A stretch of 64,000 bases of DNA, taken from the NCBI GenBank assembly GCA_024397995.1, contig CP073746.1:1302001-1366000 (forward strand), read 5' to 3'. Shown here one piece after another: positions 27,631-56,215 of the stretch; the stretch's first letter is position 1, and every line of letters begins with the position of its first letter. The DNA comes from a bacterium SCSIO 12827 (GTDB taxonomy: Bacteria; Pseudomonadota; Alphaproteobacteria; Rhodospirillales; Casp-alpha2). Position numbers and translations under genes: made by a program. The notes under the pieces were generated by a model. It was not told the DNA's origin, searched no databases, and saw nothing but the letters and a program-made list of their open reading frames with translations.

Positions 27631-28545
27631 CTGTCCCGTTACATCAGCCTATTTCTCGACATGCTGGCCGCCGAAAGAGGTGCGGCCCGTAATACGATTG
27701 AATCCTACGGCCGGGATCTGGACGACTTCGCGTCGTTCTGCGCCCGGCGCAAGACGGCCGCCGACGCGGCCGGCCCGGATGACGTCACGGCCTATATGAA
27801 GCGCCTTTCGGGTGCAGGCATGGCGGCCAGTACCCAGGCCCGGCGGTTGTCGGCCCTGCGTCAATTCTTTCGCTTCCTGCAGGCGGAACGCATCCGCGAC
27901 GACGATCCGACACAGGCTGTTGATGCGCCGCGTCAGGCGCGCTCACTGCCCAAATACCTGAGTGAGGAAGAGGTCGAACGCCTGCTGACCGCGGCCCGCG
28001 AACGGCCGGGTGCTGACGGCCTGCGCACGGCGGCCTTGCTGGAAGTGCTTTACGCCACGGGTCTTCGCGTGTCGGAACTGGTCGGCCTGCCCATGGCGGC
28101 GGTCGCCCGCGACGGACGGGTGCTGATCGTGCGCGGCAAGGGCGGGAAGGAACGCATGGTGCCCATCGGTGGCCCGGCGCGCGATGCCCTTGGCGATTAT
28201 CTGGCCGTGCGCGACGGGTTTTTGGGCAAGGACAAGGATGCGCGGGCGGCCTTCCTGTTTCCGTCCCGTGCGCAACAGGGCCATCTGACGCGCGCCCGTT
28301 TCGGGCAGATTCTCAAGGAACTGGCGGTTGCCGCCGGCATTCCGCCGAAACGGGTATCACCGCACGTCCTGCGTCATTCCTTCGCCAGTCATCTGTTGGC
28401 CCACGGCGCCGATCTGCGGTCCCTGCAGCAGATGCTGGGTCATGCAGACATCTCGACCACGCAGATCTACACCCATGTCCTGGAAGAGCGCCTGAAGGCG
28501 CTGGTTGACCAAGCCCATCCCTTGGCCAAGGCCCCCCTGGATTAG
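27631..28545 (+). CDS. xerD: Tyrosine recombinase XerD, apparent CTG start
   Basis: Site-specific recombinase that, with XerC, resolves chromosome dimers at dif. Catalytic residues are visible: ATGLRVSEL (first Arg), RGKGGKERMVP (Lys), SPHVLRHSFASHLL (HxxR), LGHADISTTQIYTHV (His and the Tyr nucleophile). The first ATG (27661) would start inside the N-terminal helix at MLAAERGAARNT, about ten residues short of the family start. CTG at 27631 has GGGAGG 6 nt before it and gives LSRYISLFLDMLAAE, 304 residues, so CTG is the better start. Normally next to accA in relatives; here it is not. Confidence 0.93.
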   Translation: MSRYISLFLDMLAAERGAARNTIESYGRDLDDFASFCARRKTAADAAGPDDVTAYMKRLSGAGMAASTQARRLSALRQFFRFLQAERIRDDDPTQAVDAPRQARSLPKYLSEEEVERLLTAARERPGADGLRTAALLEVLYATGLRVSELVGLPMAAVARDGRVLIVRGKGGKERMVPIGGPARDALGDYLAVRDGFLGKDKDARAAFLFPSRAQQGHLTRARFGQILKELAVAAGIPPKRVSPHVLRHSFASHLLAHGADLRSLQQMLGHADISTTQIYTHVLEERLKALVDQAHPLAKAPLD

Positions 28546-34373: not shown

Positions 34374-34784
34374 GTGTTTCCTCCCAATTAATAATCAGCG
34401 AATAACCACCATCCGCCGATGGGTATAATTTGCGCGATGCTCGCGCGTTTAATGAACAGCCCAAGACGTCGTGTTGATTTTTTTTGCAATCCCCCGGGCT
34501 CGGTTACAACCGCTCCCAAGCCATTAGTGGCGGGGAACCGTTATATCCTGTCGGGAATCTTCCCAATACGCAACGCGAAGGCAAGGCTTTTTCCCTGTAT
34601 GACTTTTCCTGCAGACGATGCGACACGGATTCGTTGAGGTGCACCCGCAGGGGCTCGGATCAAGATTCCGGGCCGGGGACGGCGGGAAATCGGGGTCCAG
34701 AGCGGCCCGCCCAGCTGCTGTCGCTGCAAATGCCGGACCGTGGGTGTTTTTCACGATGCGGAATAGCGCGCTGATTACAGTGTC
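34374..34784. other. 411-bp non-coding region upstream of dctP
   Basis: No gene, tRNA or terminator was recognised. The short reading frames here have poor codon use and no start sites with good Shine-Dalgarno spacing. It should hold the promoter of the TRAP operon (minus strand), which has the GGAGG site near 34380. A TTAAAC/TATACC pair with about 19-bp spacing is seen on that strand around 34424-34454 but is weak. Confidence 0.45.
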
Positions 34785-35750
34785 TCAGGCGACCCGGTCG
34801 CCGGGGGTGCCGCCGGCGAAATAGGCGTCAAGATTATCGAGGGCGCGGAATCCCATTGCGTCGCGGGTTTCCCGATTGGCGCTGCCGATGTGCGGCAACA
34901 GGAATGTGTTGTCGAGCGCGATCAACCGCTTATCGACATTCGGTTCGTTGTTGTAGGCATCAATCCCCGCCGCGAACAGTTTGCCCGATTTCAAGGCGTC
35001 GACCAGCGCGTCGTCGTCGATCACCGCCCCCCGGGCGGCGTTGGCCAGGACGGCCCCATCCGGCAGCAGGGCGAAGCGCGCGGCATTCATGATGCCACGG
35101 GTCTCCGCCGTCACGTTGCAGTGAAGCGAGAGGAAATCGCAATGCGGCAACATGTCGTCCAGGGTGTCGTGCCAGACAGCCCCTTTTTCCTTGTCCGGGC
35201 TGAGGCGGGAACGGTTGTGGTAGTGGATTTCCATGCGGAAGGCGCGTGCCAGATCGGCGACCGTCTGGCCGACCCGGCCCATGCCGAGAATGCCCAGCCG
35301 TTTGCCGGTGACGCCCAGGCCGACCATGAAGGCGGGCGACCAGTCCTTCCAACCACCTGAGCGCACCAGGCGCTCACCCTCGCTGGCGCGCCGCGCCGCG
35401 CCGAGCATGAGCAGGATGGTCGTCTCCGCCGTGGCGTCGGACAGAACCTCGGGCGTGTTGGTGACGATGACGCCGTGTTTCTTCGCCGCCTCGACGTCGA
35501 CATGGTCATAGCCGACGGAGAAATTGGCGATGATCTTCACGCGCTCGGGCAGCTTGGCGAAGACCTCTTCCGTGAAGTGTTCGGTATGGCAGGGCATGAT
35601 GGCGTCCACGTCCTGGGCTGCTTCGATCAGCGCGTCTTTTGTATAGAGTTTGTCCGTCGGGTTCAGGCGCGCGTCGTAATCGCGGGACAGCCGCGCGTGC
35701 ACGGCGTCCGGCAGTTTGCGGGTGACGAGTACGGTCGGTTTGGCGGCCAT
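34785..35750 (-). CDS. D-2-hydroxyacid dehydrogenase (glyoxylate/hydroxypyruvate reductase type)
   Basis: A 321-residue NAD(P)-dependent reductase of the D-isomer-specific family. The Rossmann motif is LGILGMGRVGQTVADLAR at about residue 150; catalytic Arg is in NAARGAVIDDDAL, Glu in DAYNNEPNVDKR, and His in FLLPHIGSAN. It is closest in motif to the GyaR/GRHPR group, which reduces glyoxylate and hydroxypyruvate. It is followed, on the same strand, by the TRAP operon after a long gap, and begins 45 bp after gntR. With malyl-CoA lyase nearby (which releases glyoxylate) a link to C2 metabolism is attractive but inferred. Confidence 0.88.
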   Translation of the reverse strand: MAAKPTVLVTRKLPDAVHARLSRDYDARLNPTDKLYTKDALIEAAQDVDAIMPCHTEHFTEEVFAKLPERVKIIANFSVGYDHVDVEAAKKHGVIVTNTPEVLSDATAETTILLMLGAARRASEGERLVRSGGWKDWSPAFMVGLGVTGKRLGILGMGRVGQTVADLARAFRMEIHYHNRSRLSPDKEKGAVWHDTLDDMLPHCDFLSLHCNVTAETRGIMNAARFALLPDGAVLANAARGAVIDDDALVDALKSGKLFAAGIDAYNNEPNVDKRLIALDNTFLLPHIGSANRETRDAMGFRALDNLDAYFAGGTPGDRVA

Positions 35751-35795
35751 GATTTCCTCCCATCAGGTTGTCGGCATGGGGGTACACCACGGCGT

Positions 35796-36500
35796 CTAGC
35801 CTTGTCGAGGGGGAGCCTCCATTGCCGGCTGGTAGATGTCCATGTCGCGCACGGGTTCGGACACCATGACCTGGCCCAGAAGCTCGTCGCGCAGGTCGGT
35901 CAGATAAACGTAGGTCTGGGCTTCGGCCTTTTTCTTTTCACCGTCGCGTAGGATCGCCAGGGCATCCTCGATCCCGGCACGCAGGCGCGGAATGATGACG
36001 TCTTCTGCCCACAGCAACGAGATGATGCGTTCCGACCAGTCAAGCATGGGGGCGAGTGCATCCGCCGCGCGCCGGTTGCCGGTGATGCCGAGCACCGCCA
36101 GACGAAACCGCCGGTCGGCTTCGAACATGGCGGGGCGGGAGCGGTTAACCTCCGGCTTGGCGGCGTCGCGGGCAATGGCATCCAGCGACCGGATGTCGTC
36201 GGCGGTGATCATCTCCGTCGCCATGCCGGCGGCGGCCAGTTCGATCAGCAAGCGGAAATCGAACACTTCCTGGATGTCGCGGACGGTGACGCGGGACACC
36301 GTATAACCCTTGCGTGGGGCGGACAGGATCAGGCCGTCGTGGACCAGGCGGATCAGGGCGACCCGCACGGTGGCCAGCGTTGCCTCGTAACGCCGGCAGA
36401 ACTCCTGTTCCGTCAGGTCCTGCCCCGGCGGCAGGGCGCCCTGAATGATGTCGAAGCGGATGCGGTCGTAGACCAGATCGCTGAGCTTGGGTTTCTCCAT
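35796..36500 (-). CDS. GntR family transcriptional regulator (FCD type)
   Basis: A 234-residue regulator: N-terminal winged helix at about residues 5-70 (LVYDRIRFDIIQGALPPGQDLTEQEFCRRYEATLATVRVALIRLVHDGLI) and a C-terminal all-helical FCD effector domain with candidate metal ligands. ATG 36500 is chosen because one of the repeats of the operator array (36517) lies just upstream; a TTG at 36536 would place two repeats inside the gene. It is divergent from the PLP gene and probably autoregulates. The effector is likely a carboxylate. Confidence 0.88.
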   Translation of the reverse strand: MEKPKLSDLVYDRIRFDIIQGALPPGQDLTEQEFCRRYEATLATVRVALIRLVHDGLILSAPRKGYTVSRVTVRDIQEVFDFRLLIELAAAGMATEMITADDIRSLDAIARDAAKPEVNRSRPAMFEADRRFRLAVLGITGNRRAADALAPMLDWSERIISLLWAEDVIIPRLRAGIEDALAILRDGEKKKAEAQTYVYLTDLRDELLGQVMVSEPVRDMDIYQPAMEAPPRQG

Positions 36501-36516
36501 GAGAAAACTGATAGCA

Positions 36517-36566
36517 TCAGATTCATCTTTTAACAATGTCAGATGTGGATTATAGACATATCAGAT
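36517..36566. promoter_or_regulatory. Triple TCAGAT repeat array, likely GntR operator region
   Basis: TCAGAT occurs at 36517-36522, 36539-36544 and 36561-36566, with exact 22-bp start-to-start spacing (two helical turns), in the divergent promoter region between gntR and the PLP gene. Phasing puts all three on one face of the helix. A -10-like TATAGA is at 36551-36556. Assignment to the adjacent GntR is inference. Confidence 0.55.
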
Positions 36567-36599
36567 GATTTAACCTCTTCCAGGTGCAGGACCCTCCTC

Positions 36600-37844
36600 A
36601 TGACCAAAGATCGCTTCGGTAACGACTTCGCGCCCGGCCTCGCCTATGCGCGCGGCGACATTCTGTCCTCGACCGCCGATGATTTGGCCAAACTGCGGGC
36701 CGCCTGGGAACATATCCGGGCGCGCGAGGCCAAGGGCGAGGACACGGTCAACGCCTCGGGCCTGGAGCGCTGCATGTCCGTGGAGCCGGGGGAGGAACAC
36801 CTGCTCGACGACGAGATGGCGGCGGCCCTGCTGACTGACGAACTTCGTGAACTGGGATTGAGGATGTTCGGCGGCGATGGCGACCGCCACGACATCATGA
36901 TGACCAACCGGTTGACGGCGGGCCTGCTGATCGCCGCCGACGTGGTGGTGCCCGAGGGATCGCACGTCATCGGCTTTTCGCCGACCTACAGTCATCCGGC
37001 GGTGCAGCGCGCGGCCAAACACGCACGGGCGACCTTCACCGACCTGACGGACATCCGCGATGTGGAGGCGGCGCTGCGCGCAGATCCCAAACCGGGGGCA
37101 CTGTTCCTCACGCGATTGGCGGTCAGTTATCAAATTCTGGACGAGGCCGACCTGCGCCGGGCGGCGGACATCGCCCATGGTCGGGGCATTCCGGTGATCG
37201 TGGACGATGCCGGGGGCGCACGCGTCGGGCCGGCCTGTTTCGGTCAGCCGCGCACCTTGGAGTTGCCCGTAACGGTCGCCTGCACAGGGTTGGACAAGTA
37301 CGGCACACTGGGCCCGCGCTTAGGGTTGATCGGCGGCGAGGCGTCCGTGATCGCCGCCATGCGCGCCCGTGCCTATGAAATGGGGATCGAGGCCCGGGCC
37401 ATGCTGTTCCCGCAGGTTGTCCGGTCGCTCAAGTACTACAGCGACGAAAAGGTCCAGGCCCTGGTCGCCTGCACCATGACCGTGCGCGACGCGGTGGTCG
37501 CGGCGCTTGGCGCCGACCGGGTGCATGTCACGCCGGTGACGGCGCAGTTGAAGGCCGAGGATATCCTGGAGATGGCCATGGCGCGCAGCGGCGTGAACGA
37601 AGCACCTTGCGTGCCTTACGAGGCAACGGCGGGCCTCGCCATGCTGCTGCTGCGCGATTACGGCATCCTGACCGTGCATTTCGCAGGTATCCCGCCGGGA
37701 ACCTCGGCGCTGATGTTGAAGTTCATCTCACCCCAGGTGTTGGCGGCGGTCGGCGGGGCGGATGCCTTCGCCCGCGCCATCGACGCCTCGATCGGCAAAC
37801 TGGGGAGGTCATCGCCGACCCTGCGGCCCTTGCCCGCCTGCTGA
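36600..37844 (+). CDS. PLP-dependent enzyme (class V/SelA-like), probably frameshifted at the C-terminus
   Basis: The 414 residues as read carry a PLP fold: substrate region ITSERTIER is not kept, but VVPEGSHVIGFSPTYSHPAVQRAAKHA, the cofactor Asp segment IPVIVDDAGGAR, and the probable Schiff-base lysine in CTGLDKYGTLGPRLGLIGG are visible. ATG 36600 has AGGA upstream. After IDASIGKLG the frame ends in RSSPTLRPLPAC, unlike coding sequence, while the frame shifted by one base reads GEVIADPAALARLLKG and runs on to a stop at 37924. A G lost from the run at 37802-37805 would explain this. Substrate unknown. Confidence 0.7.
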   Translation: MTKDRFGNDFAPGLAYARGDILSSTADDLAKLRAAWEHIRAREAKGEDTVNASGLERCMSVEPGEEHLLDDEMAAALLTDELRELGLRMFGGDGDRHDIMMTNRLTAGLLIAADVVVPEGSHVIGFSPTYSHPAVQRAAKHARATFTDLTDIRDVEAALRADPKPGALFLTRLAVSYQILDEADLRRAADIAHGRGIPVIVDDAGGARVGPACFGQPRTLELPVTVACTGLDKYGTLGPRLGLIGGEASVIAAMRARAYEMGIEARAMLFPQVVRSLKYYSDEKVQALVACTMTVRDAVVAALGADRVHVTPVTAQLKAEDILEMAMARSGVNEAPCVPYEATAGLAMLLLRDYGILTVHFAGIPPGTSALMLKFISPQVLAAVGGADAFARAIDASIGKLGRSSPTLRPLPAC

Positions 37845-38066
37845 AGGGGGCTGAGGCTTCGGTCCCCGCGTTGCCGGCGAATAGGTGGAGCAGCGGATCC
37901 GGGGTTTTTTCCGCATTGCGGTAAGCCTTCCATTCGTGGCTGATTTGCCCTTGCGGGCGCTTGGGGGGCTGGTTATGTTGCGCCCGCGAAATAACAATTC
38001 ATAAGCGGTGGCGCCATCGGCTTCGAAACCCGAGAACGCCGCCTCATTCGGACGCAGGAGATTCAG

Positions 38067-39044: not shown

Positions 39045-39071
39045 TCTGTCTTTTCGGCATTTTTGAACAAT

Positions 39072-39108
39072 AAACGGCGGGTTCCCTGGATTTGGGACCC
39101 GCCGTTTT
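39072..39108 (+). terminator. Rho-independent terminator after malyl-CoA lyase
   Basis: A GC-rich stem of about 13 bp with one bulged T (39072-39086 with 39094-39107) is followed by TTTT. It cleanly separates mcl from the EAL gene. Confidence 0.88.
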
Positions 39109-39153
39109 CGTTTCTGTCCCCAGGGTGCCAAATCTATAGCGAAAGTAGGGATG

Positions 39154-39181
39154 TTCATCGCCCGCATAAGGTTTCTATAAT
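39154..39181 (+). promoter_or_regulatory. Candidate promoter of EAL gene
   Basis: TTCATC (39154-39159) and a consensus TATAAT (39176-39181) with 16-bp spacing lie 30 bp before the ATG at 39212. Confidence 0.45.
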
Positions 39182-39211
39182 GCCCGCAAAATACAAAGGG
39201 CAGGGACGGAT

Positions 39212-51561: not shown

Positions 51562-52230
51562 TCAGCGCTTCAGGATGAATTCGGACACATCGGCCCGATC
51601 CTGCCAGCCGGCGCGCACCAATTCCGGCTCCAGGTGCTCCTCCTCGGGCAGGCCCAGGCACAGATAGGCGACCAGGTGCCAGTCTTCGGGGACGTCGAGG
51701 ATTTGCGACACACGGCCGGGATGGAGGATCGACACCCAGCCCACGCCGACCCCCGCCGCCCGCGCCGCCAGCCACAGGGTATTGACGGCGGCGACCACGG
51801 AATAGGGCAGCATTTCCGGCATGGTGTTCTGGCCCAGGCCGTGCCCGCGCTCCGTCGCCCGGTCGGCGAACACGGCCAATTGCACGGGCGCCTTGTCCAG
51901 CCCCGCCAGCTTCAACCCCGCATAGGTCTGGGCGCGCTCCCCGGAATAGCCCTGAAGGGCGTCCGTATTGGCGGCCTCGAAATCGTCGCGCACCGCCTTG
52001 CGGCGGGCCGCATCCTCGACCACGACGAAGCGCCAGGGCTGTGAATTGCCGACGCTGGGCGCCAGCGCCGCCTGGGCCAGCAGGCCTTCCAGCAGGCCGT
52101 CGGGCAGGGGGGTGGCCAGGAATCGCCGCACGTCGCGCCGCCACAGCAACAGGTCGCGCAGCTTGTCGCGGAAGGCCGCGTCGAAATCCGGTGGCTGCGT
52201 GCCGGGGCCTGGGTCGGGGCGCTCGCTCAT
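51562..52230 (-). CDS. bluB: 5,6-Dimethylbenzimidazole synthase
   Basis: An oxygen-dependent nitroreductase-fold enzyme that fragments FMNH2 to make the lower ligand of vitamin B12. The 222 residues start at ATG 52230. WRRDVRRFL, ALAPSVGNSQPWRFVVVED, MPEMLPYSVVAAVNTLWLAARAAGVGVGWVSIL and CLGLPEEEHLEPEL match BluB rather than generic nitroreductases. With cobS/cobT elsewhere in the window it indicates aerobic cobalamin synthesis with DMB. Confidence 0.92.
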   Translation of the reverse strand: MSERPDPGPGTQPPDFDAAFRDKLRDLLLWRRDVRRFLATPLPDGLLEGLLAQAALAPSVGNSQPWRFVVVEDAARRKAVRDDFEAANTDALQGYSGERAQTYAGLKLAGLDKAPVQLAVFADRATERGHGLGQNTMPEMLPYSVVAAVNTLWLAARAAGVGVGWVSILHPGRVSQILDVPEDWHLVAYLCLGLPEEEHLEPELVRAGWQDRADVSEFILKR

Positions 52231-52335
52231 GGGGTCGAGGTGTAGCCCCTGCCGCGAAGGCGGGCAACCCGTCCTTGGCCCTTGCGATGGAAAGCCCGTA
52301 GGATTACCAGAGGCATGCCGCAACGGCGGCCGCGC

Positions 52336-52422
52336 GCGGGCGTGGTGAAATTGGTAAACACAAGGGACTTAAAATCCCTCGGCCTTACGGCCTTGTCGGT
52401 TCAAGTCCGACCGCCCGCACCA
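52336..52422 (+). tRNA. tRNA-Leu(UAA)
   Basis: An 87-nt class II tRNA with acceptor stem GCGGGCG/CGCCCGC and encoded CCA. The anticodon loop CTTAAAA carries TAA. A variable arm (CGGCCTTACGGCCT region) and TTCAAGTCC T-loop are present. It is the apparent integration site for the downstream islet. Confidence 0.95.
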
Positions 52423-52557
52423 TCCGCCTTCGCTTACGGTTCGGTGAATTAGATATCTGTGTTCCCATAATGTTCTATTTTCTTGTATTCTCTCTGCTGT
52501 GATTGCATTCTGTAGTGCGGGGTACAGCAGTGCGGCAAGGCAAATACGAGGTTGAAA

Positions 52558-54375
52558 ATGGGCCGATACTCTCTCGTAAAACAGCAATCAACGCCTCAGG
52601 ATTCGCATTGTTTTCGAGGGGGTTCGCCTCTCGATACGTTGACTTCCGGTCGGGCTATGGCACGTGCACTGGTGGCCAGTGTTGATGAATCCGATTGCCT
52701 TGCTTTGGCCCGGGCGTTTGGAACGCACGTGATATCTGTGTGGTGGGAGGCTTTTACCGCCTCTGAAACGACAATGATTTCTCTGCGCGCTCCCCTGGAG
52801 CCGTTCGAGATGATCGACCTTCCTACCGCTGTAAAAAATTTGGCTGACAGCCTCGGTAAAGCGGCAGCGCAACTTGAAGCCGAGGTGGCTGCTTATCATA
52901 TCGGTCTCATCTACACTTCCACGCTGCCGCTCACGCACCGAGCTTCGTTCGGCGTTTATTATACGCCACCATGCCTGACGGATCGGTTGATTGCTCAAGC
53001 CACTTACAGCGGTGTCGATTGGGCTACCTGTCGCGTTCTCGATCCAGCCTGTGGCGGTGGTGCTTTTCTTGCGCCCGTGGCTCGTCGCATCCTTGACGAG
53101 TTGACGGACTGTACCCCACGTATCCTGATCGAGAATATTGCCAACCGCCTGCGTGGTTACGAAATCGATCCCTTTGCAGCTTGGCTATCTCAGGTCGCAC
53201 TCGATGCCGTGCTACTGCCCATTACTTTGGCAACGGATCGTCAGCTTCCTGTTGTTGTCACTGTTTGTGATAGTCTCCGCAAAAATCCGCCGCGCGATCA
53301 GTTTGATCTTGTTATTGGCAATCCGCCTTATGGTCGGGTTCGTTTGGCCCCGGACGATCGTGCGCACTTCAAGCGTAGCTTATTCGGTCACGCTAACCTC
53401 TATGGGTTATTCACAGACATGGCACTGCGTCACACCCGTTCCGGAGGTGTGGTCGCCTATGTGACACCGACTAGTTTTCTCGCCGGAGAGTACTTCAAAA
53501 ATCTCCGCGACTTGCTTGGCCGGGATGCTTCGCCCGCAACGCTCGATTTCGTCTCTGTTCGTAAAGGTGTTTTCGACGACGTTCTGCAGGAGACCCTGCT
53601 CGCAACATATAAGCGAGGCTCACTCCGTTCCCCTATTGTGGTCCACGAGATCACGCCTGAGAACGATTCCGGCCTGACCGTTGAATATGCAGGATCTTTT
53701 GATATTCCGTCGGATTTTTCTAGGCCTTGGATTTTGCCCCGCTGCGCGGAACAGGCTCCGCTTGTCTCCTTGCTTATGGGAATGGAGCACCGTCTTTCCG
53801 ATTGGGGGTATACCGTCAGCACGGGCCCTTTGGTTTGGAACCGTTACAAGGATCAACTTGCCGAACGGCCGGGCCGGAACCGCTATCCGCTGATATGGGC
53901 CGAGGCTATTACTTCGGATGGCCGATTCACTTGGCGTGCCGAGAAAAGAAACCATACACCTTGGTTCGAGATACGAAATGGTGATGACTGGCTTGTTACT
54001 GATAACCAATGTGTTCTATTACAGCGTACCACGGCAAAGGAGCAAAACCGCCGGTTGATTGCCGCGGCTCTCCCAGCGGATTTTCTTGGGCGACACGGTG
54101 CAGTAGTCATCGAAAATCATGTCAATATGTTGCGACCACTTACCGAAAGCCCATCGATTTCTGCGGACGTTCTGGCTGCTTTTCTCAATAGTGCCGCTGC
54201 TGATCGTGCCTTTCGGTGTGTCAGCGGTAGTGTCGCCGTATCTGCGTTTGAGTTGGAGGCGTTGCCCCTCCCAACTCCTGACGATCTGAAGCCTCTCTCC
54301 CGATTGGTCCGGGATAATGCCAGCCGTGCGCGGATCGAGGCAGCCTGTTCTAGGCTCTACGAGGGAACCGCCTGA
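52558..54375 (+). CDS. N6-adenine DNA methyltransferase of PstI/BsuBI-type system
   Basis: The 605-residue modification enzyme has an N-terminal helical region, then FGVYYTPPCLTDRL, SAM motif I LDPACGGGAFLAP at about residue 162, acidic motif II/III GYEIDPFAAWLSQ, and catalytic motif IV FDLVIGNPPYGRV at about 253, followed by a target-recognition region. NPPY shows adenine-N6 methylation. ATG 52558 has GAGG 6 nt upstream. The gene is AT-richer than its neighbours and its stop is 3 nt from the endonuclease start. The pair lies beside tRNA-Leu. Confidence 0.92.
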   Translation: MGRYSLVKQQSTPQDSHCFRGGSPLDTLTSGRAMARALVASVDESDCLALARAFGTHVISVWWEAFTASETTMISLRAPLEPFEMIDLPTAVKNLADSLGKAAAQLEAEVAAYHIGLIYTSTLPLTHRASFGVYYTPPCLTDRLIAQATYSGVDWATCRVLDPACGGGAFLAPVARRILDELTDCTPRILIENIANRLRGYEIDPFAAWLSQVALDAVLLPITLATDRQLPVVVTVCDSLRKNPPRDQFDLVIGNPPYGRVRLAPDDRAHFKRSLFGHANLYGLFTDMALRHTRSGGVVAYVTPTSFLAGEYFKNLRDLLGRDASPATLDFVSVRKGVFDDVLQETLLATYKRGSLRSPIVVHEITPENDSGLTVEYAGSFDIPSDFSRPWILPRCAEQAPLVSLLMGMEHRLSDWGYTVSTGPLVWNRYKDQLAERPGRNRYPLIWAEAITSDGRFTWRAEKRNHTPWFEIRNGDDWLVTDNQCVLLQRTTAKEQNRRLIAAALPADFLGRHGAVVIENHVNMLRPLTESPSISADVLAAFLNSAAADRAFRCVSGSVAVSAFELEALPLPTPDDLKPLSRLVRDNASRARIEAACSRLYEGTA

Positions 54376-54378
54376 GTC

Positions 54379-55464
54379 ATGTCTGTGCTCCCGCCCTATG
54401 TTTCTCGAGATTTCGTAGCAGAAAGACTACCTCTAATCTTTCCCGAAGGCACGCCAAACCGGACTTATTGCGTGCGGGAACTGGCGGCCAGTACTGTCTT
54501 CGCGATGCTTTATATTGGGGCAGTTGAAGGTACCGAACGTTACCTTGGTCCGGTCCATGTTTATCGCATGACCAAAGAGCAAGCCGCACAGTCTGGCGAT
54601 GACATGCGCTTAGGTTATGCCAGTTCAGTATTGAAGAAGAAATATGTTACTCAAGGCACGCGTTGGTATGCTGACAATACTCGCGAGCCGATCCGCGATG
54701 AAACTTTGCGCGAGGGCTTGGTTGCCATCGGGGCCGTTTTTACGCGAACCGATTTGCCAACCACCTCCAGTAAGCCTCGATATGCGCTCAAATCAAACTT
54801 CGCAACATTGTTTGATCCATCTCTGGATGGTGCTGCACTTGAAACCGCCATCGGCAACTTTCAGGAAACGCACCTGTCCAAGAGTGCGCTTGCGCGCGTC
54901 TCGATCATGCGTGCGGGTGCCGCCGCTGGGGCGAGTGGCGTATTAGTCTCGTTCCCCAACAGGGAAACCCGCCAACTCGCACCAGGTCCCAGTTCAATCA
55001 TTACGCAGGCTGTCATTGAAGTTTTTGCGCCTGCATTTCTAGAAAATCCCGCTGTGCTGTGGCTCAGCGAAAGCGGCAACAAGGTTGTCGCTCGTGACGA
55101 CAAGCTTGCCGCTGCCATCGGCCTCAAAATCGAAGCCGATAAAAATCTACCGGATATCATCCTTGCGGACCTCGGCCCGACTGAACCGCTCCTCGTTTTT
55201 ATTGAAGTGGTTGCCACTGATGGTGCTGTCACGACACGCCGACAAAAAGCGTTGTTAGCCCTTACCGACGAGGCGGGGTTCTCGCGAGATCAAGTGGCGT
55301 TCTTGAGCGCCTATCAGGACCGGGAGACCGCTGGGTTTCGTAAAACCATCACAGGGCTCGCTTGGGGGGCATTTGCTTGGTTTGCATCTGAGCCTGATAA
55401 GCTTGTCATTCTTCGAGACGGCGGGAGTAGCCCGGCCCGTCTCGCCGACCTGCTGGCTTTCTGA
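54379..55464 (+). CDS. PstI/BsuBI-type restriction endonuclease
   Basis: A 361-residue type II endonuclease of the BsuBI/PstI family (PF06616). A helical N-terminal domain (VREL..STVFAMLYIGAVEG) is followed by the C-terminal PD-(D/E)xK-like catalytic core: LPDIILADLGPTEPLLVFIEVVATDGAVTTRRQ, split as LPDIILADLG and VFIEVVATDGAV, where Asp and Glu are the expected metal ligands. PstI-type enzymes recognise CTGCAG, but specificity cannot be read here. It overlaps no other gene and is followed by the tRNA remnant. Confidence 0.9.
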   Translation: MSVLPPYVSRDFVAERLPLIFPEGTPNRTYCVRELAASTVFAMLYIGAVEGTERYLGPVHVYRMTKEQAAQSGDDMRLGYASSVLKKKYVTQGTRWYADNTREPIRDETLREGLVAIGAVFTRTDLPTTSSKPRYALKSNFATLFDPSLDGAALETAIGNFQETHLSKSALARVSIMRAGAAAGASGVLVSFPNRETRQLAPGPSSIITQAVIEVFAPAFLENPAVLWLSESGNKVVARDDKLAAAIGLKIEADKNLPDIILADLGPTEPLLVFIEVVATDGAVTTRRQKALLALTDEAGFSRDQVAFLSAYQDRETAGFRKTITGLAWGAFAWFASEPDKLVILRDGGSSPARLADLLAF

Positions 55465-55473
55465 CGATAGTGT

Positions 55474-55550
55474 AAGAGGGTTTTATAATCCCTCGGCAAT
55501 TTCGGCTTGTCGCTTCAAGTCTGGCTGCCCCCTGCTTTCGCTTCGCTACA
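55474..55550 (+). repeat. Degraded copy of tRNA-Leu 3' half (att-like)
   Basis: This stretch resembles 52362-52437 of tRNA-Leu and its flank: it shares AATCCCTCGGC, CTTGTCG, TTCAAGTC and TTCGCTT in the same order, with substitutions and small gaps. It starts 10 nt after the endonuclease stop. It would be the distal end of an islet inserted into the tRNA gene and is not a functional tRNA. Confidence 0.75.
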
Positions 55551-55672
55551 GCGCGGTTAAGCCCTCAACACGAAATCGTCACCCCCTCGCCACAGGATCG
55601 CCCCGTTGCCCCCTAGGATGCCGTACTGTCGGCGCCGCCGCCATTCACAGGCTTAACGAGGGGACGCAATCC

Positions 55673-56215
55673 ATGACCACTGAGAACCCGACCGCGCGCT
55701 TCCACGAACAGTTGGGCGGCGATGCCTTGCTGTCGGTTTTGTCGGAGGCCCAGGACACGGTGCGCAGTTACGACAACAAGGCCCAGATCATGGGCGTGGG
55801 CTACATCCTGGCCTTGCAGGTGGTGTTGCGCAGCGGCGCGCAGATTCCGGTGCCCATTGATCAGGCGGGGCTTTACGTGTTCGCGGGCTGGGCCATTCTG
55901 GTGCTGCCGATCATCATGTTCGCGTTGGTGCTCTATCCGTCGCACGCCAACAAGGTGTCGCGGAAGCGCGATTTCGGGGCCTGCGTGGGGGCGATGTATT
56001 TCGATCCGTGCCGCAGCCCCGATGTGGACGCCTATGTGCGCACCGTGGCCGGCGCCGACTGGGTGCGCGAGACGGCCTGCGAGATCATCAAGGTGTCGGA
56101 CATCCGCGACAAGAAACGCACGCGCTTCCTGCGGGCCCTCTATTGGACCGGCGGGTCGTTCGTCATGCTGTTCCTGGCGCAGATGGCGCGGGCCTCGGGC
56201 CTGCTTGCCGAATAG
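55673..56215 (+). CDS. Pycsar effector-like (DUF5706) membrane protein
   Basis: A 180-residue protein that fits the Pycsar membrane effector family in layout: a helix with TVRSYDNKAQIMGVGY (the DxKA element) at about residue 30, a first membrane segment around 38-55, a second at about 65-88 ending LYPSHANK, then MYFDPCRSPDVDAYVRTVAG and EIIKVSDIRDKKRTRFL before a last hydrophobic helix. Known PycTM effectors disrupt the membrane on binding cyclic pyrimidine nucleotides. No cyclase gene is nearby, so function may differ. ATG 55673 has AGGGG upstream. Confidence 0.62.
   Translation: MTTENPTARFHEQLGGDALLSVLSEAQDTVRSYDNKAQIMGVGYILALQVVLRSGAQIPVPIDQAGLYVFAGWAILVLPIIMFALVLYPSHANKVSRKRDFGACVGAMYFDPCRSPDVDAYVRTVAGADWVRETACEIIKVSDIRDKKRTRFLRALYWTGGSFVMLFLAQMARASGLLAE

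Follow-up and report, generated by a model that had tools for sequence, protein, structure and literature searches.

How did a two-gene restriction-modification (R-M) unit come to stand between an intact tRNA-Leu(UAA) gene and a decayed copy of the 3' half of the same tRNA, with no integrase gene beside it? The locus lies in a 64,000-nucleotide stretch of the SCSIO 12827 genome, and that whole stretch is called the window here. It was originally predicted, from the letters of the window alone, to be an R-M islet inserted at the tRNA gene.

Layout and content of the islet

The only tRNA gene that ARAGORN finds in the 64-kb window is tRNA-Leu(UAA), at 52336..52422 on the forward strand. It is intact, identical in the closest congeners (G004, G006 and G001), and forms the proximal, attL-like junction of the islet. 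The other features of the islet lie on the same strand: an AT-rich leader (52423..52557); the gene for a type II N6-adenine DNA methyltransferase (52558..54375, with an ATG start at 52558 and an in-frame TTG at 52552); the gene for a BsuBI/PstI-family type II restriction endonuclease (54379..55464); and a degraded tRNA-Leu(UAA) 3' half (55477..55533), recognised by repeat alignment, which runs from the anticodon stem onward and forms the distal, attR-like junction. The host DNA downstream of the site (55534..55672) aligns with the post-tRNA sequence of G006, and likewise with that of G004 except for an extra piece of ~115 nt there. From the end of the tRNA to 55477 there are 3054 nt, in agreement with the ~3.05 kb originally predicted between the two tRNA copies. 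The relic had also been placed 10 nt past the endonuclease stop, and it is indeed close by, at a distance of 12 nt when its boundary is set at 55477. The first ~16–20 nt of the leader resemble host post-tRNA sequence and the remainder is unlike the host, and no integrase similarity above chance was found in its 135 nt. The two R-M genes are the only genes between the junctions, so the integrase gene is absent, as had been claimed.

The reading of this region as an intact tRNA-Leu(UAA) followed by a methyltransferase and an endonuclease of the PstI/BsuBI type is one on which ARAGORN and Pfam agree. The methyltransferase matches the Pfam families Eco57I (1e-13) and N6_Mtase (1.1e-07), and the endonuclease matches BsuBI_PstI_RE (PF06616, 4.5e-46) as well as an N-terminal HTH domain (PF17728, 1.6e-28). 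PADLOC labels them MTase_II (1.5e-239) and REase_II (6.4e-144), respectively. The only solved structure matched by the endonuclease sequence is that of SdaI (PDB ID: 2ixs; E 1.2e-11, residues 95–346), a distant likeness seen in sequence alone. When compared with 30 relatives, the methyltransferase shows 0 deviations in 167 near-invariant columns and the endonuclease 1 deviation in 122. Since almost all of these columns are kept, both genes look intact and, judging from the family, the pair is probably still active in modifying and cutting sites of the PstI type. Both genes are foreign by composition: each has a GC content of 0.545, compared with 0.56–0.71 for 12 neighbouring genes, and GC3 is 0.524 for the methyltransferase and 0.532 for the endonuclease, compared with 0.72–0.90 for the same neighbours. 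The higher AT content and different third-base choice noticed at the outset are therefore real.

BsuBI and PstI recognise and cut CTGCAG. Avoidance of this site was considered as a mark of long residence and rejected, the genome containing 1395 sites and its sister G004, which has no R-M pair, 1428. Within the genus, CTGCAG is depleted in G006 (558) and G003 (810) compared with the other six genomes (1322–1617, including the 1395 of the present one); despite this depletion, neither G006 nor G003 has a match to the endonuclease of the window.

The tRNA relic and the empty site

A direct repeat connects 52363–52427 with 55477–55541, at 72% identity over 65 ungapped nt, and is the longest direct repeat listed in 52000–56000; it may extend ~16–20 nt beyond the end of the tRNA. 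That a degraded copy of the tRNA 3' half follows the endonuclease, as predicted, is borne out by its alignment score of 51; the highest score among 2000 single-base shuffles is 29, and the best other place in the sampled stretches of the window reaches 31. A 151-base tRNA query has three matches in the 3.93 Mb genome, namely the tRNA itself, the relic (E 1.2e-5) and tRNA-Leu(UAG). A chance likeness of 55477–55541 to the tRNA is ruled out by the genome match and the shuffle scores, and derivation from tRNA-Leu(UAG) is ruled out by a score of at most 16, compared with 51–53 for the UAA types. The latter are indistinguishable as sources of the relic (51 for the tRNA of this genome, 53 for the type found in G005 and G024). 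Relic and tRNA differ at 13 of 54 positions without gaps or, once two one-base gaps are allowed, at 9 of 53, and the CCA region is lost. The relic was also rejected as a part of a travelling R-M cassette, as blastn finds it neither at 23 loci with related R-M pairs nor in plasmids. No copy of its 20-base core was found in viral contigs.

Seven congeners, mostly draft genomes with a completeness of 83–98%, were compared at this site. tRNA-Leu(UAA) is present in all eight genomes of the genus, the present one included, and the endonuclease has no match in any of the seven congeners. Among 41 genomes (again including the present one) it was found in this genome only, where it has no second copy, and one other genome gives a partial match with 27% identity. 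The flanks of the nearest congener, G004, are ~95% identical to the window. There, CCCGCTTTCGCTTACGCTACAGCGCGG comes directly after the CCA of the tRNA; from GCTTTCG onward it equals, apart from one deleted base, the sequence distal to the relic in the window. The islet is absent at the tRNA in G004, G006 and G001, each of which has a single intact tRNA-Leu(UAA), and in G002, G003 and G007 other sequence lies 3' of the tRNA. What speaks for insertion at the tRNA, as originally predicted, is that the site is empty in G004 and that none of the seven congeners gives an endonuclease match.

A small GIY-YIG-like gene (a label given by reading of the sequence) lies directly after tRNA-Leu(UAA) in G005 (L053:4329-4568), and only its start is found in G004 (L048). 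Because this gene, or its start, occurs in two congeners, the tRNA-Leu(UAA) site has taken other DNA as well, and it varies within the genus. Another segment that differs between this genome and G004 is 35740–37905 (~2.2 kb), which has no alignment to G004 and encodes a GntR-like regulator and a 433-aa PLP-dependent-enzyme-like ORF, both named by reading.

No integrase adjoins tRNA-Leu(UAA) in any of 13 relatives, some of whose contigs end nearby. In seven of them the contig that carries the tRNA also encodes an integrase, the nearest one being 12–33 kb away and a high-scoring member of the family, like the one at 27952–28488 in the window; in the other six, that contig, which in several cases is short, has none. 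The genome itself contains seven integrase matches, three of which have a tRNA gene (Ser, Arg or Ala) no more than 1 kb away, and none has a tRNA-Leu gene in the 1.5 kb of flank examined.

Attachment sites in viral contigs and the origin of the islet

In IMG/VR, 83 stretches contain GGGACTTAAAATCCCTCGGC, an anticodon-stem sequence, and the 80 of these that were listed were examined. Seven of the 80 lack the 5' half of the tRNA. In five of the seven (L116, L153, L155, L164 and L183) the tRNA 3' half adjoins a tyrosine integrase frame on the opposite strand, whose C-terminal end is 14 nt (four cases) or 43 nt (one case) past the CCA; no integrase was detected in the other two (L142 and L145). 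Since L153, L155 and L183 share one sequence, the five amount to about three independent attP cases. The search pattern starts at the anticodon stem and can find this type of attachment only, so that the existence of this attP type is shown, and not its commonness. Two stretches with a full tRNA (L143 and L177) have the integrase upstream of it, which is a different layout. The relic starts at the same anticodon stem as the viral attP-like halves of tRNA-Leu(UAA), and because these lie beside tyrosine integrases, the footprint of the islet fits an integrase insertion. Deletion of the integrase end from a parent element would fit too, as a phage of the attP type, once integrated, would put int where the bare 135-nt leader remains; by this comparison, the leader would be the former int slot.

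The account that we favour, with a probability of roughly 0.63 for the whole of it, is that the islet is the stripped remnant of a tyrosine-integrase element at tRNA-Leu(UAA), which probably arrived already stripped, by homologous recombination. A tyrosine-integrase element would have inserted at the anticodon-stem end of the tRNA, the anatomy of such an event being observed and the enzyme presumed. The insertion would have left a functional tRNA on the left-hand side, with the former 3' half pushed out to the right, an arrangement which is seen directly. The integrase and the other genes of the element would have been deleted, leaving the two-gene type II R-M unit between the junctions. The block may have reached this genome in that stripped form, through homologous recombination in the conserved tRNA and flank; this is the weakest step. 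Against an integrase element speaks the fact that nothing recognisable as an integrase, whole or in part, remains here, and that no integrase adjoins the tRNA in the 13 relatives. The original prediction had left a choice between a larger element that was cut down and movement in trans; the first is backed indirectly, by the viral attP sites and the position of int in the slot of the leader, and the second is unsupported.

Since the integrase gene is absent, the islet is classed as a stripped remnant and not as a working island. It is a stripped tRNA-site islet whose type II R-M system is an ordinary one; as such it is a further example of a kind already known, the age of its junction being a modest puzzle, and no paper was recognised in a literature search as an account of it. 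Like islands and prophages placed at tRNA genes by an integrase, such as the tRNA-integrated elements of Sinorhizobium meliloti (PMC11476347), it has a tRNA kept intact, a direct repeat of the tRNA end and foreign DNA between the two. It differs from these elements in having no integrase, in being a 3 kb unit and in its decayed distal repeat; all 88 tRNA-integrated elements analysed there carry an integrase gene (PMC11476347). The present islet is small and well delimited: the insertion site, the empty site and the leftover junctions are all readable, and a neutral clock is available with which to compare the decay of the junction. The case suggests that, at tRNA sites, defence genes can survive the loss of the integrase that brought them in, and perhaps spread further through recombination at the tRNA. 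By itself, it does not alter current understanding of the spread of R-M genes.

Age of the junction and competing routes

When an integrase inserts in the classic way, the tRNA end found at the distal junction is the one that belonged to the host before it was displaced. Pairwise divergence between this genome and G004 is 10.6% at fourfold sites (935 sites) and 5.7% over 4596 non-coding positions, as delimited by a crude gene caller, and lineage-specific change in the right flank amounts to 94 of 3569 positions (~2.6%). The probability of at least 13 differences in 54 positions is 3e-9 at 2.85%, 8e-6 at 5.7% and 0.004 at 10.6%, and that of at least 9 in 53 is 2e-5, 0.003 and 0.1, respectively. 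The divergence of the relic exceeds both the lineage-specific change and the pairwise non-coding divergence from G004; with the gapped count (9/53), it is not clearly above the fourfold divergence of 10.6%. Local exceptions exist, since ~4.5% of overlapping 54-nt non-coding segments have at least 13 differences, all of them in three places. The relic looks older than the neutral change of the lineage, which the original prediction did not include. Because it is more decayed than that change, the insertion may predate its presence in this genome and is probably older than the split from G004, with the gapped count leaving room for a younger one, and the excess decay of the displaced tRNA end makes arrival in an already stripped form the likelier course.

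Between the window and G004, 18 of 118 sites of the spacer 55551–55672 differ. The crude caller labelled this spacer coding, which puts it outside the non-coding mean. Sixteen of the changes are specific to G004 and eight to the window; the latter (8/121, compared with 94/3569 beyond the spacer, p 0.018) weakly support the idea that the right flank may have been imported as a tract. Elsewhere in the window, two stretches called intergenic, 34389–34769 and 39060–39196, differ from G004 by 13.7% and 16.8%, compared with the mean of 5.7%, and local recombination is possible there.

An unlikely alternative has the degraded tRNA copy arriving on the element itself, with the crossover immediately beyond the 3' end of the tRNA, within GCYTTCGCTT(A)CG, which both junctions have in common. 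Such a crossover would explain why the relic is 17–24% diverged and, relative to G004, the neighbouring 26 nt of host sequence have one deleted base and no substitutions (Fisher p 0.007 with 13/54, 0.026 with 9/53), and why host-like post-tRNA sequence is kept at both junctions. However, G004, G001 and G005 have almost identical sequence in this stretch, which may be under constraint, and an extended form of the pattern has a single occurrence in this genome, hence is no general recombination site. A dispersed repeat as the site of crossover was ruled out, there being one copy in the genome. Similarly unlikely is an insertion that predates the species split, was inherited vertically here and was cleanly lost in the sampled relatives. 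The divergence of the relic does suggest an old event, but several independent clean losses would be needed (G004, G006 and G001 have a single tRNA and no islet), each of them without an integrase and between repeats just 72–77% alike.

Nobusato et al. reportedly described, in 2000, R-M insertion with a long target duplication. Entry of the R-M unit by such a route, without an integrase and with a duplication of ~65–85 bp, would be expected to produce a bare two-gene unit between long direct repeats, and the islet shares these traits; it would also accommodate a repeat that may run beyond the tRNA. R-M systems insert with long, variable target duplications according to PMC3031569. The repeat of the islet, however, is the tRNA 3' half, sits in a classic integrase target and starts at the anticodon stem like the viral attP-like sites of tRNA-Leu(UAA), and it is strongly diverged where a fresh copy is expected to be near-identical, all of which makes this origin quite improbable.

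Pairs related to that of the islet are encoded at 23 loci in species genomes, the best endonuclease identity being 84%, in Afifella pfennigii. In plasmids, 141 records match the endonuclease, the best (84.7%) being two Cereibacter plasmids typed as conjugative, and there are two matches in phage records (25% identity) and two in viral contigs (72%). Thirty loci were compared, comprising the 23 genome loci, the two viral ones and five of the 141 plasmid records. At all 30, blastn likeness to 52301–55700 is confined to 52840–55457, with no shared flanking DNA by blastn, and ARAGORN finds no tRNA gene at any of them, several being clipped by contig ends; two genome loci (L070 and L074) contain a tmRNA. 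No match to the leader was found in plasmids or among the loci compared. An integrase is found near the pair at one of the 30 loci (L074), and misses are likely because the HMM used was home-made from few frames (six, from five of the seven integrase loci of this genome, without L095 and L098).

Movement in trans, in which a tRNA-Leu(UAA)-specific integrase from a phage or an island would mobilise a minimal integrase-less R-M unit with tRNA-type ends, suits the lack of an integrase and of room for one, and integrases beside attP sites of this type exist in viral contigs, but it is very unlikely given that none of the 30 related loci has a tRNA gene by ARAGORN and none of the 13 relatives an integrase beside the tRNA (some contigs ending nearby in both cases), that the attachment sequence on the right has decayed badly, and that the unit has no second copy in the genome. 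That the R-M unit, with its tRNA-type attachment ends, moves about without encoding an integrase, through capture in trans by phage integrases of tRNA-Leu(UAA) or by interspecies recombination through the conserved tRNA gene, is likewise quite doubtful.

The Cereibacter pairs, on plasmid p.D of C. sphaeroides (CP031755.1) and p3 of C. azotoformans (NZ_CP090025.1), have no tRNA gene in the stretch examined and no flank in common with the islet. Their gene order is the same, and in addition to the endonuclease identity given above, 2.6 kb can be aligned at 71.5% DNA identity. On both of these plasmids a CopG/ribbon-helix-helix gene, which is missing from the islet, precedes the methyltransferase.
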